Source: Lacinutrix sp. 5H-3-7-4 (lineage in GTDB: Bacteria; Bacteroidota; Bacteroidia; Flavobacteriales; Flavobacteriaceae). Taken from it: DNA of 64,000 bases. Made by a program: the position numbers and the translations under genes. Below the pieces are notes generated by a model, which had not been told where the DNA came from, made no database searches, and saw only the letters and a list, made by a program, of their open reading frames with translations. Where the stretch lies: positions 2,577,001 to 2,641,000 of the forward strand of contig NC_015638.1 of NCBI RefSeq assembly GCF_000211855.2, given 5' to 3'. Below are positions 1,816-27,639 of this stretch, one piece after another. The number at the start of each line of letters is the position of its first letter. Position 1 is the stretch's first letter.

Positions 1816-2646
1816 ATGATTAATATAGGAGAATACAATACTTTAGAAGTTTTAAGAGATACAGAGCCAGGATTATTTCTTGGAGACGAAGATGGTAACG
1901 AGGTGTTACTGCCTAATCGTTATGTGGAAGATGTTTTTAAAGTTGGAGATGATGTAGAAGTATTTATTTACTTAGATAATGATGAACGTTTAGTAGCAGT
2001 AACAGACGAGCCATATATAACAAGAGGTGATTTTGCTGTTTTACGTTGTAATGCAGTTAACGATTATGGTGCTTTTTTAGATTGGGGAATGGTAAAAGAA
2101 TTATTTTGCCCATTTAAAGAACAAGCCTTTAAAATGAAAAAAGGTGGTTGGTATTTAGTACACTGTTATTTAGACGAAAAAACCGAAAGACTTGTAGCAT
2201 CAAGTAAGACCAATAGGTTTTTAGATAATACAGTATTAACAGTAGCAGAGTTTGATAAGGTAGATTTAATAGTCTCACATCCAAGTGATATAGGGATGAA
2301 TGTTATTGTAAATGGTAAACACACAGGATTAATTTATAAGGATAATATTTTTCAGGAAATTAGTGTAGGAGATAGACTAGACGGTATAGTTAAAAAAATT
2401 AGACCTGGAAATAAATTAGATATTGCTTTAGGAGAAATAGGATATAGAAATATAGAACCTAATGCTAAAAAAATACTAGAAACCTTAGAAGATAATAGTG
2501 GCTATTTACCATTACATGATAAGTCTTCGCCAGAAGCAATAAAAGAGACTCTAGAAATGAGTAAAAAGAATTTTAAAAAAGCTATTGGTACACTTTATAA
2601 GCAAAAGCAAATCACTATAGAAAAAGAAGGTATTAGGTTAAATTAA
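1816..2646 (+). CDS. cvfB: CvfB/YitL-type S1 RNA-binding protein
   Basis: A 276-residue cytoplasmic protein with the CvfB layout: consecutive S1/OB-type RNA-binding segments over about residues 1-215 and a C-terminal winged-helix region (about 217-276, KKILETLEDNSGYLPLHDKS onward). The S1 repeat with LRCNAVNDYGAFLDWG (about residues 74-89) is typical. In Firmicutes CvfB affects virulence gene expression through RNA binding; the role in Flavobacteriaceae is not established. It has its own promoter box and a terminator, so it appears to be a single-gene unit embedded in the menaquinone region. Confidence 0.82.
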   Translation: MINIGEYNTLEVLRDTEPGLFLGDEDGNEVLLPNRYVEDVFKVGDDVEVFIYLDNDERLVAVTDEPYITRGDFAVLRCNAVNDYGAFLDWGMVKELFCPFKEQAFKMKKGGWYLVHCYLDEKTERLVASSKTNRFLDNTVLTVAEFDKVDLIVSHPSDIGMNVIVNGKHTGLIYKDNIFQEISVGDRLDGIVKKIRPGNKLDIALGEIGYRNIEPNAKKILETLEDNSGYLPLHDKSSPEAIKETLEMSKKNFKKAIGTLYKQKQITIEKEGIRLN

Positions 2647-2662
2647 TAACCATATATAACAA

Positions 2663-2705
2663 TAAAAAAAACTGTTTTCTATTAGTTTAGAGAACAGTTT
2701 TTTTA
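2663..2705. terminator. Bidirectional terminator between cvfB and the 2740-3183 gene
   Basis: A-run, stem with aaactgttttct / agagaacagttt, then a T-run. It can serve cvfB on the plus strand and the converging minus-strand gene. Confidence 0.75.
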
Positions 2706-2739
2706 TTAAATTAAGGGATATAAATAGTTTTATTAGTTA

Positions 2740-3183
2740 TTACTTTAAAACGCATTGTGACTTAGTCCAATTATAAGCCTCTGTTAATGAGTCAAAGTCT
2801 TTTTTATTAGTTTTAAAAAAAAGCTCTTCAATTTTAATAGCATTTCTTTTGTAACTGTTATAAGTAACTGTACAATAAGATCGCGCACTTTTTAATTTCT
2901 CTTTAAAGTAGTGTAAATCTAATGGCGAAACAGAGAAGTCATTAACTCTGTTGGATATATAACCATAAGGATCTTCTCTAAAATATAAGTTTATAGCATC
3001 AATTAGTAATTTGCTATTATCTATATTTAAATGCTCACCATCATGTATTTCAGATACAACTGCATCTTCAAGAAAATATAACATACCAACACTATGCTCA
3101 AAACGTTCAATAATTTTAGAGCTTAAATCAGAGTATATAATAGAGTTTTTTGGGTTCACTTTTGTAATAAATTTATTAGACAA
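2740..3183 (-). CDS. Unrecognised 147-residue protein, possibly SpoIIAA/STAS-like
   Basis: Soluble protein without signal peptide. The middle part (about residues 29-90, with YISNRVNDFSVSPLDLHYF) resembles small SpoIIAA/STAS-like proteins common in Flavobacteriaceae; this is pattern memory, not an alignment. The start is uncertain: the frame has no upstream ATG, and the only start matching the full ORF is TTG at 3183-3181, which sits directly behind a terminator-like hairpin and U-run. The first in-frame ATG is at residue 34 and would cut the domain. Transcription control by the leader hairpin is therefore plausible. Function unknown. Confidence 0.6.
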   Translation of the reverse strand: MSNKFITKVNPKNSIIYSDLSSKIIERFEHSVGMLYFLEDAVVSEIHDGEHLNIDNSKLLIDAINLYFREDPYGYISNRVNDFSVSPLDLHYFKEKLKSARSYCTVTYNSYKRNAIKIEELFFKTNKKDFDSLTEAYNWTKSQCVLK

Positions 3184-25265: not shown

Positions 25266-26501
25266 ATGGATAAATTAAAACAAGCAAACCTTTATAGAAG
25301 CGAACTAATTCCTATTAGCGGGAAACTAGTAGAACGTTATAATAAGTGCTTAGTAAAACTTGGTTTTTTACCAACAAAACTCACTACATTTTCTATAGAT
25401 GGAAAAGGTTGGAGTCCAGAAATAGCAGAAGAAAAACAAAATTTGCATTATCTTAATAATGGTGAGGCAAATATGCATGCTATTATAATTTCACCATTAC
25501 AAAAAGGCAAACCGGTTTACGTACCATTTCACACGTTCGACCGTGAAATGATGCAACATGTATTTAGAACACACGAAGCTAAAATTAATAATATAACTCG
25601 AGACAGTGCAATTTGTTTAGATTTCGATCAAAATATAGATGCATTTTACGAACCTTTAGATGTTTTAAAATACAGTGTTGTTACTATAAATTTTCATTTA
25701 ATAGATAACTTAGATCAAATTCAAAAAGACCAATTAGAACTTGTAGCAAAATTTAAGCACGGTAATAATTTTATAGATGAAGACATTCATGCGCAATTAT
25801 TAAATTCTGCTAAAACATATGGCGATTTAAGAACGCGAGATTTAAAGTTGCACGAACTCCAGTATACAACAAATTCATTTTATACAAAGGCATTTGGAGG
25901 CGTTTACGTGCTACGAGATTTTATTAAGGAAATTGTAGTTTTTGAAGATGAAAAATGGCATAAAGAAGCCATTAAAGATACAGCGCACGATGTATTAATT
26001 TATCATATTTCTCAGCCAGAATTAATGGATAAATTGAGAGATCATATTATAATTGAATGTGATTTAGAAGATGAAGTTAAAACACCAAGATACGAGCGTA
26101 TAAAAAAGTTTGTTTTTGCCGAAGCTATAAAAGAAGCACAACATCCATTTACTAATATTTTAAACGATAAAGTGTTATATAAAAGCTATTTGAATAAGCT
26201 TGATATAGAAAGTAGAAAACGTGTAATGAGCGTAGAACGTTATCTCGAAAAATTAGAAGTAAGTAACGAATTTAAAATTGCAGATATTGTAGATGTTAAG
26301 TTTTTTGAGGCTTTACATAAACCACACTCATCTTTACACGCAAAGCATCAAGATTTAATATGGAAGCTATTAATAAATGTTTCTGCTAAAGATGTATTAT
26401 TTTTATATTGGTATGATAAGGAACAATTTTATAAAACATACGAGACTTGGAACGACTCTTTAAAAGATTGGGTAATAGAGGAAATTAGTAACAATATTTA
26501 A
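25266..26501 (+). CDS. Unrecognised 411-residue protein of the AAA+ cluster
   Basis: Soluble, no signal peptide. Begins MDKLKQANLYRSELIPISGK and ends in WVIEEISNNI; the sequence is mixed alpha/beta with no motif I know. Sits behind the Nudix gene (91-base gap) and before the GIY-YIG insertion. Conserved-looking, full-length ORF with normal codon use, so it is real, but its function cannot be given. Confidence 0.72.
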   Translation: MDKLKQANLYRSELIPISGKLVERYNKCLVKLGFLPTKLTTFSIDGKGWSPEIAEEKQNLHYLNNGEANMHAIIISPLQKGKPVYVPFHTFDREMMQHVFRTHEAKINNITRDSAICLDFDQNIDAFYEPLDVLKYSVVTINFHLIDNLDQIQKDQLELVAKFKHGNNFIDEDIHAQLLNSAKTYGDLRTRDLKLHELQYTTNSFYTKAFGGVYVLRDFIKEIVVFEDEKWHKEAIKDTAHDVLIYHISQPELMDKLRDHIIIECDLEDEVKTPRYERIKKFVFAEAIKEAQHPFTNILNDKVLYKSYLNKLDIESRKRVMSVERYLEKLEVSNEFKIADIVDVKFFEALHKPHSSLHAKHQDLIWKLLINVSAKDVLFLYWYDKEQFYKTYETWNDSLKDWVIEEISNNI

Positions 26502-26525
26502 AAAATGGTTACTAATAGTAAAATG

Positions 26526-26553
26526 GATTCTGCGTCGTAGCGCAGAATGACAG
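26526..26553 (+). repeat. REP-like palindrome A
   Basis: attctgcg (26527-26534), 6-base loop tcgtag, cgcagaat (26541-26548), followed by gacag. Same orientation as copy C at 26987-27013. Confidence 0.75.
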
Positions 26554-26643
26554 AGAGTATATTAATTTTTTAATTGTAAGAATGTCGATTTTTATTTGAA
26601 GTTTAAATGCAATAATAAAATTATTAATTGAAACACGAATGTT

Positions 26644-26670
26644 TGTCATTCTGCGTTACGACGCAGAATC
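26644..26670 (-). repeat. REP-like palindrome B (inverted)
   Basis: Reverse complement of palindrome A apart from one loop base; lies 10 bases before the GIY-YIG start codon. Copies B and C therefore form inverted repeats around the nuclease gene. Confidence 0.75.
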
Positions 26671-26679
26671 TATAATAAA

Positions 26680-26982
26680 ATGAAAGGAAATTATCATCAA
26701 TATTACATGTATATTCTTTCAAACAAGAAAAATGGAACATTATATATAGGTGTTACAAACGATTTAGAAAGAAGAATTTTTGAACATAAAAAGAAATTAG
26801 TAGAAGGATTCACTAAAAAGTATGGATTAAATAAATTAATCTATTTTGAACAATTTCAATATGTTAATGATGCAATAAAAAGAGAAAAACAATTGAAGAA
26901 TTGGAATAGAAGTTGGAAAATTAAATTAATAGAAAAAGAAAATAAAGATTGGACTGATTTATCGTCTAATTGGAATTTTTAA
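26680..26982 (+). CDS. GIY-YIG nuclease family protein, palindrome-flanked
   Basis: 100-residue single-domain nuclease. The motif is seen as YYMYILSNKKNGTLYIGVTN (GIY-YIG pattern with Y-x10-YIG), followed by the catalytic Arg in LERRIFEHK and a late Lys/Glu region (IKREKQLKNWNR). UvrC/YhbQ-like single-domain members of this kind are very numerous in Bacteroidota genomes. The gene is bracketed by REP-like palindromes at 26644-26670 and 26987-27013, with a third at 26526-26553, and interrupts a cotranscribed run, so it is likely a small mobile or formerly mobile element. Confidence 0.9.
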   Translation: MKGNYHQYYMYILSNKKNGTLYIGVTNDLERRIFEHKKKLVEGFTKKYGLNKLIYFEQFQYVNDAIKREKQLKNWNRSWKIKLIEKENKDWTDLSSNWNF

Positions 26983-26986
26983 AATA

Positions 26987-27013
26987 GACGCTGCGTCGTA
27001 GCGTAGAATGACA
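26987..27013 (+). repeat. REP-like palindrome C
   Basis: Third, more diverged copy (gacgctgcgtcgtagcgtag then aatgaca), direct orientation relative to A, immediately after the GIY-YIG stop. Confidence 0.7.
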
Positions 27014-27041: not shown

Positions 27042-27566
27042 ATGACAATAGAAATAATAGTATTCATCGCATCAATCCTTTTTGGAATACTGCTGTATTG
27101 GAGAGAATCTAAAAGCAATAAAATTTATAAATTTTTCAATAAACTCTTTTATTCTAAAGACCTACAAATGAAGGATGATAGTAAAAAAGGCTTTTTATAT
27201 CAGCAGTCCTTTTTAATGCGATTGGTTTATATTGGTGTTTTGTTTTTAATTGGTGTATTAGTTTTAAGATTAATAATTCCAATAGATATGTACACCATCC
27301 AACTATTTATTGCCAGTATTTCTGGAACATTAATAGGTACGTATTTAGCTAATTTTGTCTTCAAATCTTCAGAAGTTATGGATGAACAAGGAGATTCACT
27401 TTTCGATGCAGTAAAAGACACTGTAGATAAAGGTAAAGACTTTATAAAAGATCTAGAAACTAAAGACACAAAAGCAGTGCAAGAAGCAAAAAAAGAAATT
27501 AAAGAAGAGCCAGAACCACCTAAAAAAAGTGCAAGACAACGATTAAAAGATAAAGGACATTTGTAA
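27042..27566 (+). CDS. Membrane protein of the AAA+ cluster (174 residues)
   Basis: Three predicted spans (about 3-19, 58-80, 84-108) and a charged cytosolic tail with a coiled-coil/helix (SLFDAVKDTVDKGKDFIKDL), Glu/Pro-rich stretch and basic end (SARQRLKDKGHL). No family recognised. It follows the inserted GIY-YIG element by 28 bases and precedes the second membrane protein gene, so it belongs with the AAA+ cluster and may anchor the complex to the membrane. Confidence 0.72.
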   Translation: MTIEIIVFIASILFGILLYWRESKSNKIYKFFNKLFYSKDLQMKDDSKKGFLYQQSFLMRLVYIGVLFLIGVLVLRLIIPIDMYTIQLFIASISGTLIGTYLANFVFKSSEVMDEQGDSLFDAVKDTVDKGKDFIKDLETKDTKAVQEAKKEIKEEPEPPKKSARQRLKDKGHL

Positions 27567-27615: not shown

Positions 27616-27633
27616 TTCCTGCTTACGCAGGAA
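27616..27633 (+). repeat. Palindrome TTCCTGC-TTAC-GCAGGAA
   Basis: Perfect 7-base arms with a 4-base loop, six bases before the ATG at 27640. I recall similar dispersed palindromes in Flavobacteriaceae; it could also affect translation of the next gene. Confidence 0.5.
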
Positions 27634-27639
27634 AATATT

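Follow-up and report, generated by a model that had tools for sequence, protein, structure and literature searches.

The analysed window is a stretch of 64,000 nucleotides (positions 2,577,001 to 2,641,000 of NC_015638.1) from Lacinutrix sp. 5H-3-7-4, whose 3.3-Mb genome forms a single contig. Between an ORF for a DUF6638 protein and an ORF of 174 aa lie a gene for a small GIY-YIG endonuclease and three palindromes, here named P1, P2 and P3 (Table 1). P2, the gene and P3 form a unit with the layout TGTC-palindrome, GIY-YIG gene, palindrome-GACA, in which the tags of both palindromes point outward.

Table 1. Features of the palindrome/GIY-YIG element and its neighbours (window positions)
Feature	Position	Strand	Remarks
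DUF6638 ORF	25266-26501		upstream neighbour of the element
P1 palindrome	26523-26552	+	stem-loop 26527-26548; GACA tag 26549-26552 at right end
P2, left palindrome of the gene-bearing unit	26644-26673	-	outward TGTC tag 26644-26647; stem-loop 26648-26669
GIY-YIG endonuclease gene, 100 aa, single domain, UPF0213/Slx1-like	26680-26982	+	PF01541, 4e-17
P3, right palindrome, decayed	26980-27013	+	stem-loop 26988-27009; outward GACA tag 27010-27013
Whole tag-to-tag gene-bearing unit, 370 bp	26644-27013	+	delimited by geometry and by comparing relatives that have a gene-free unit or an empty site
174-aa ORF	27042-27566		downstream neighbour of the element

P2 has a 9-bp stem (ATTCTGCGT/ACGCAGAAT), a 4-nt loop and the tail CTA. 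P2 and P3 fall within a 43-nt inverted repeat that is 84% complementary, and P1 and P2 within one of 30 nt that is 93% complementary. P1, which is inverted relative to P2, and P3 are direct copies of each other (88% over 34 nt), and P1 may have been the right end of a previous unit. As drawn, P3 shares 3 nt with the stop codon of the GIY-YIG gene. An earlier, sequence-only reading of the window had described three near-identical palindromes, the middle one inverted, of which the last two bracket a 100-residue GIY-YIG gene. The coordinates, the inverted repeat and the PF01541 match confirm the bracketing, and both the number of palindromes and the inversion were borne out; "near-identical" is generous for P3, since this copy has decayed.

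The same reading had asked for a count of the palindrome across the genome. Allowing up to 3 mismatches, the palindrome pattern gave 7 strand matches in the 3.3-Mb genome and a control pattern gave 1 (pattern counts here and below are sums over the two strands; where mismatches are allowed, a small number of palindromes may contribute twice). Five of the seven matches are P1, P2 and P3 and the other two are a single weak palindrome elsewhere, so that the palindrome is confined to this locus in the genome. The count thus exceeded that of the control, but the dispersed repeat that had been expected was not seen in this genome, which has three copies, all at one place. A longer tagged pattern was found in 3 copies at the window locus, in 2 copies at a decayed gene in the genus member G007, and in 0 to 2 copies in each of the remaining eleven genus members. 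A further palindrome (ATTCCTGC-TTAC-GCAGGAA type) occupies positions 27616-27637 of the window, directly before a 581-aa ORF, and variants of it are present there in several relatives.

The GIY-YIG protein

PF01541 and PF10544 were the only domain matches of the window protein. The PF01541 score of 62.7 bits, against a cutoff of 22.6 bits, places it in the GIY-YIG superfamily, and the group I intron endonuclease model TIGR01453 scored 27.2 bits, under its cutoff of 56.05 bits. Neither the HUH tyrosine transposase domain nor the GTAG tag that mark a RAYT/REPtron was found, the tag here being TGTC. A structure model of the protein (pLDDT 91.9) was used for a Foldseek search, which ranked UPF0213 (1zg2) first and Slx1 next; the sequence profile agrees with the fold (1zg2, 2.3e-16; SLX1, 0.0015) and the protein is accordingly classed as UPF0213/Slx1-like. 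It carries the residues Y11, Y22, G24, R32, H36 and E69. These were followed in alignment columns, as a strict text pattern for the catalytic residues picked out only 54 of 80 proteins. At least 111 of 112 relatives retain Y11, Y22, G24, H36 and E69, and 109 of 112 retain R32, with conservation over E69-K73 biased because this segment lies inside the scan pattern that picked the relatives. A C-terminal W-x-[DE]-[LI] motif is present in 76 of 80 palindrome-linked proteins (the best 80 of 556 relatives).

Palindrome-linked GIY-YIG genes are mostly under purifying selection: dN/dS was 0.04-0.10 in 15 of 18 usable pairs (20 were tried) and 0.19-0.84 in the remaining ones. Stops were found within 6 of the 40 genus copies of small GIY-YIG genes. 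One explanation to be weighed here is that the protein is a host factor of the YhbQ/Slx1 kind that trims hairpins or cruciforms, and that the palindromes either regulate the nuclease or are tolerated thanks to it. Such a role would suit both the purifying selection on most gene pairs and the closeness in sequence and fold to UPF0213 and to Slx1, a branched-DNA nuclease, but a patchy distribution, decay of some copies and the occurrence of several dissimilar copies in one genome are not what a core repair factor looks like, and E. coli yhbQ has no such palindromes. We consider this explanation very unlikely.

Association of the gene with palindromes in relatives

Two surveys were made of the surroundings of small GIY-YIG genes. 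All 13 genus members searched have such genes, at 40 places in total, of which 39 were examined and one, a 31-residue fragment, was left out. The cross-phylum survey used one genome per species and one peptide pattern, and took the best 80 of 556 relatives, which come from about ten phyla by record titles; two loci with short flanks were dropped, leaving 78. The threshold was an inverted repeat score of at least 30 within 250 nt of the gene.

In the cross-phylum survey (best 80 of 556), inverted repeats span the gene at 56 of the 78 loci, compared with 3 of 146 neighbouring ORFs; when flanks were paired across loci as a control, 60 of 464 pairings reached the threshold. Omitting L101, whose ORF overran the domain, leaves 55 of 77. 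The sequence-only reading had named related GIY-YIG genes without such flanks as the observation that would speak against it, and for most loci the flanks proved to be there. Among the best 80 of 556, loci over the threshold belong to Bacteroidota, Alpha-, Beta- and Deltaproteobacteria, Spirochaetes, Ignavibacteria and candidate-phylum records, including 25 of the 42 loci outside Flavobacteriaceae, and those of Eremiobacterota, Caldimicrobium, Chlorobiaceae and Fibrobacter fell under it. Within the genus, 22 of 39 loci have inverted repeats; of the larger ORFs that served as controls (at least 330 nt, taken from 28 loci, some of them overlapping), 3 of 87 do. The threshold was therefore missed by 22 of 78 cross-phylum and 17 of 39 genus loci. 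In the window genome itself, four small GIY-YIG copies stand beside four different palindromes and only two of them pass, the others scoring 20 (L032) and 27 (L004).

The tags nearest to the gene both face outward at 40 of 78 loci and at 2 of 175 controls, and strict tagged hairpins point outward on both sides at 36 of 78 loci and at 1 of 160 controls. Strict tagged hairpins on both sides were found in only 5 of 39 genus loci, which indicates that the strict hairpin rule is too narrow for the genus. No flanking palindromes were found beside the genes of Rhizobium K1/93 (score 15) and E. coli yhbQ (score 16). At one further locus, L216 (Sinorhizobium sp. K101, plasmid pK101a), the GIY-YIG frame extends into a repeat of which a direct copy lies upstream of the gene; with flanks taken from the domain end the scores are 49 (inverted) and 203 (direct), and for this reason the locus was not counted as palindrome-free.

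Two records of N. gonorrhoeae (L213, NZ_CP119140.1; L218, NZ_CP119142.1) have a GIY-YIG gene among palindromes of the CGTC/TGTC type, with 226 and 238 pattern matches on both strands and 0 for a reversed-pattern control. These palindromes are probably dRS3, going by the naming in PMC3733652 and by the dRS3 consensus. Both records are named plasmids, are chromosome-sized at about 2.17 Mb and list 12 and 17 genes, with the GIY-YIG gene unlisted. On plasmid AZO_p3 of Azospirillum lipoferum 4B (L214), a GIY-YIG gene separates sufB from sufC and has a pair of CGTC palindromes on either side. The tags closest to the gene at the Neisseria and Azospirillum loci point toward it, unlike the common outward arrangement.

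Small genes for four-helix-bundle proteins (PF05635; L175-L204) served as a comparison set and form a second pairing of a small gene with repeats: 12 of 30 have inverted repeats at a score of at least 30, of another, short-period kind such as TCAGTGTTCAGTG. In G002, G004, G005 and G011 they lie downstream of DUF6638, at the site that holds the element in the window.

Palindrome similarity was found to track protein similarity. For 37 genus loci with unlinked flanks (after removal of two truncated genes; 629 pairs) the correlation is r=0.54, a value that includes pairs of L028 and L024, which may be orthologous sites that escaped the filter. It is 0.42 without L028, 0.35 without L028 and L024, and 0.26 without pairs at least 60% identical, and in each of these four cases 0 of 2000 permutations reached it. 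The 42 loci outside Flavobacteriaceae (among the best 80 of 556) gave r=0.34, with 0 of 1000 permutations. Within one genome, different GIY-YIG genes have unlike palindromes, with the exception of tandem duplicates. These results bear on the first alternative considered, that palindromes and small nuclease genes are passive neighbours that merely co-occupy permissive intergenic sites. Both are indeed intergenic, and other small genes with flanking repeats can occupy one and the same intergenic site, but the pattern is rare in all three sets of neighbouring ORFs (3/146, 2/175 and 1/160) and the palindrome type follows the protein, which makes mere co-occupation highly improbable.

Copy number was compared with the presence of a matching gene for a sister palindrome family, GTCATTCCTGCG-NN-GGCAGGAATC. 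The matching gene is present in three genus members, which have 56, 87 and 73 copies; among the ten others, G008 has 33, G002 has 12 and eight have at most 2 (exact p=0.0035). The abundance that characterises CGTC-tagged REPs is thus seen for the sister family in G001, G007 and G011 and is lacking in the window palindrome with its three copies. In G001, 16 of the 17 copy pairs less than 80 nt apart are in the head-out arrangement. The comparison was extended to 149 genomes of the family, drawn over 148 genera, with statistics that otherwise ignore kinship. Copies are present in 13 of 13 genomes with a matching gene (median 5; 7 have at least 5) and in 35 of 136 without (median 0; 7 have at least 5), a difference with p=1.5e-9. 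A gene was called matching at a best E-value of at most 1e-38, a cutoff picked after the E-values had been seen; G000 was counted as matching though its palindrome differs, and the test holds without it. The 45 family genomes without any small GIY-YIG match never have more than 2 copies, and 8 of them have any. The seven copy-rich family genomes without a matching gene, together with G008, count against a strict rule that links gene and copy number.

States of orthologous sites

Comparison with relatives, another check put forward with the sequence-only reading, yielded gene-bearing, gene-free and empty states. The hisC-hisB junction was resolved in ten genus members. A gene-bearing unit is present there in G000 (with an internal TGA in the gene), G006 and G007. 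G011, G001 and G008 have a gene-free palindrome pair, whose right end is altered in G008. The junction is empty in three members (G012, G005 and G002), and that of G003 is short. The picture is similar at two other places. At the L001 site, resolved in ten members, four genomes (G000, G004, G005 and G010) carry a gene-bearing unit. G001, G002, G007 and G011 have a gene-free pair, decayed at its right end in G002, and the pairs of G003 and G006 are of mixed type. A syntenic block has a gene-free pair in G001 and G011, which is collapsed in G007 and absent in G003, G012, G006 and G000. No constant target-site duplication was recognised by eye at the empty sites of the hisC-hisB junction and the syntenic block. 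At the site of the window element, the gene of G007 is decayed and both of its palindromes are present, whereas G012 has an orthologous solo copy resembling P3 and G006 a decayed solo one; these states are compatible with insertion and deletion alike. Small GIY-YIG genes often occupy orthologous sites across species, which implies that their movement is slow.

One element of G004 and G005 (L139/L140) lies in an element-sized block that is near-identical between the two species within diverged flanks: the tract 2575-3065 around it has 6 mismatches, and the neighbouring stretches have 67/360 and 101/890. A tract of this kind resembles co-conversion and is among the observations expected under the main rival explanation, in which a free-standing homing endonuclease enters the spacers of existing palindrome pairs, or an empty site of its own, and break repair then copies it, while something else makes and spreads the palindromes. 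The position of the gene inside an otherwise gene-free-looking palindrome pair at the hisC-hisB junction and the L001 site would fit such homing as well, as would the window locus, where the gene segment lies between the directly repeated P1 and P3, and where G012 carries nothing but a palindrome resembling P3. Against this, there are one or two matching genes in each genome that offers 56-87 target palindromes, which argues that the gene does not enter palindromes efficiently, and palindrome copy number is higher where a matching gene is present. On balance homing appears unlikely, but it is a serious competitor.

A candidate mobile unit and its relation to known systems

Several known systems invite comparison. 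Di Nocera 2013 (PMC3733652) described CGTC-tagged REPs, in which the tag is often TGTC, as having 8-9 bp stems starting with AT, short loops and CCA-like tails and as occurring mostly as dimers in five phyla, Bacteroidetes among them, with Neisseria dRS3 as a member and apparently without a dedicated transposase. P2 fits this definition by its TGTC tag, 9-bp stem and 4-nt loop, and P3 is a decayed form. Tag, stem, short loop, a CCA-like tail and a mostly dimeric arrangement are shared, whereas the partner here is a GIY-YIG gene and that paper reports no associated transposase; the window palindrome also differs in not being high-copy in its own genome. The "HH" dimers of that source may correspond to the outward-tag pairs of this study.

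With the REP-RAYT system (GTAG REPs, REPtrons) the element shares an enzyme gene between inverted palindromes, many gene-free paired copies and a type-specific partnership; it differs in having a GIY-YIG nuclease and a TGTC/CGTC tag in place of a HUH tyrosine transposase and a GTAG tag. UPF0213 and bacterial Slx1-like proteins (YhbQ, BH0048) are likewise single GIY-YIG domains of about 100 aa, but the palindrome-linked set mostly has the C-terminal W-x-[DE]-[LI] motif and yhbQ is without flanking palindromes. Homing endonucleases of the I-TevI type resemble the element in that a nuclease is tied to selfish DNA and in the one co-conversion-like tract, and are unlike it in that no intron was seen and the window protein has no added target-binding domain. 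Both halves, the GIY-YIG nuclease and the CGTC/TGTC REPs, are of known kinds and the novelty is their link: no paper connecting GIY-YIG genes with REPs was found in the literature searched, which excludes bioRxiv and most subscription journals.

The sequence comparisons are best explained by a mobile unit in which an Slx1-like GIY-YIG nuclease has its own palindromes as targets and causes tag-to-tag units to spread, a reading to which we assign a probability of about 0.6. The TGTC-tagged palindromes on either side would be both the ends of the unit and the substrates of the enzyme. A palindrome may fold into a hairpin or cruciform, for example on the lagging strand, where the small structure-selective nuclease would nick at or near the tag, and host replication and repair would then copy or move tag-to-tag units into new intergenic sites. 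GIY-YIG enzymes are hydrolytic and none is known to join strands, so that insertion would need host enzymes. Gene-free units, made of two outward-tagged palindromes and a short spacer, would multiply in trans as the main route of increase, and gene-bearing units would stay at one or few copies and could be lost, leaving solo palindromes. The cutting of hairpins, the position of the cut, the route of copying and the role of the nuclease as the cause of the copies are all predicted steps of this scheme, which would parallel the spread of GTAG REPs by RAYT transposases with unrelated chemistry. The sequence-only reading had seen REP-like palindromes with the GIY-YIG nuclease as their possible mover. 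That view has gained from the flank controls, the type matching, the copy-number link and the three site states; the three palindrome copies of the window genome weaken it, and movement by the nuclease is something that we infer.

Nuclease and palindrome are found paired in many bacteria, an indication that members of this enzyme family spread the CGTC/TGTC class of repeats. More broadly, and at slightly less than even odds, single-domain GIY-YIG nucleases may be the dedicated mobility enzymes of the whole CGTC/TGTC REP superfamily, including Neisseria dRS3, across many phyla, and thus define bacterial mobile units that are spread without a transposase by a hairpin-nicking nuclease and host repair. 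There is a fair chance that nuclease and palindromes together constitute a new class of mobile unit. CGTC/TGTC REPs are widespread, and the matching GIY-YIG nuclease provides a directly testable candidate for their spread. If this holds true, the system would be an independent parallel to the RAYT transposases, and its many type-matched variants could supply palindrome-specific nucleases.
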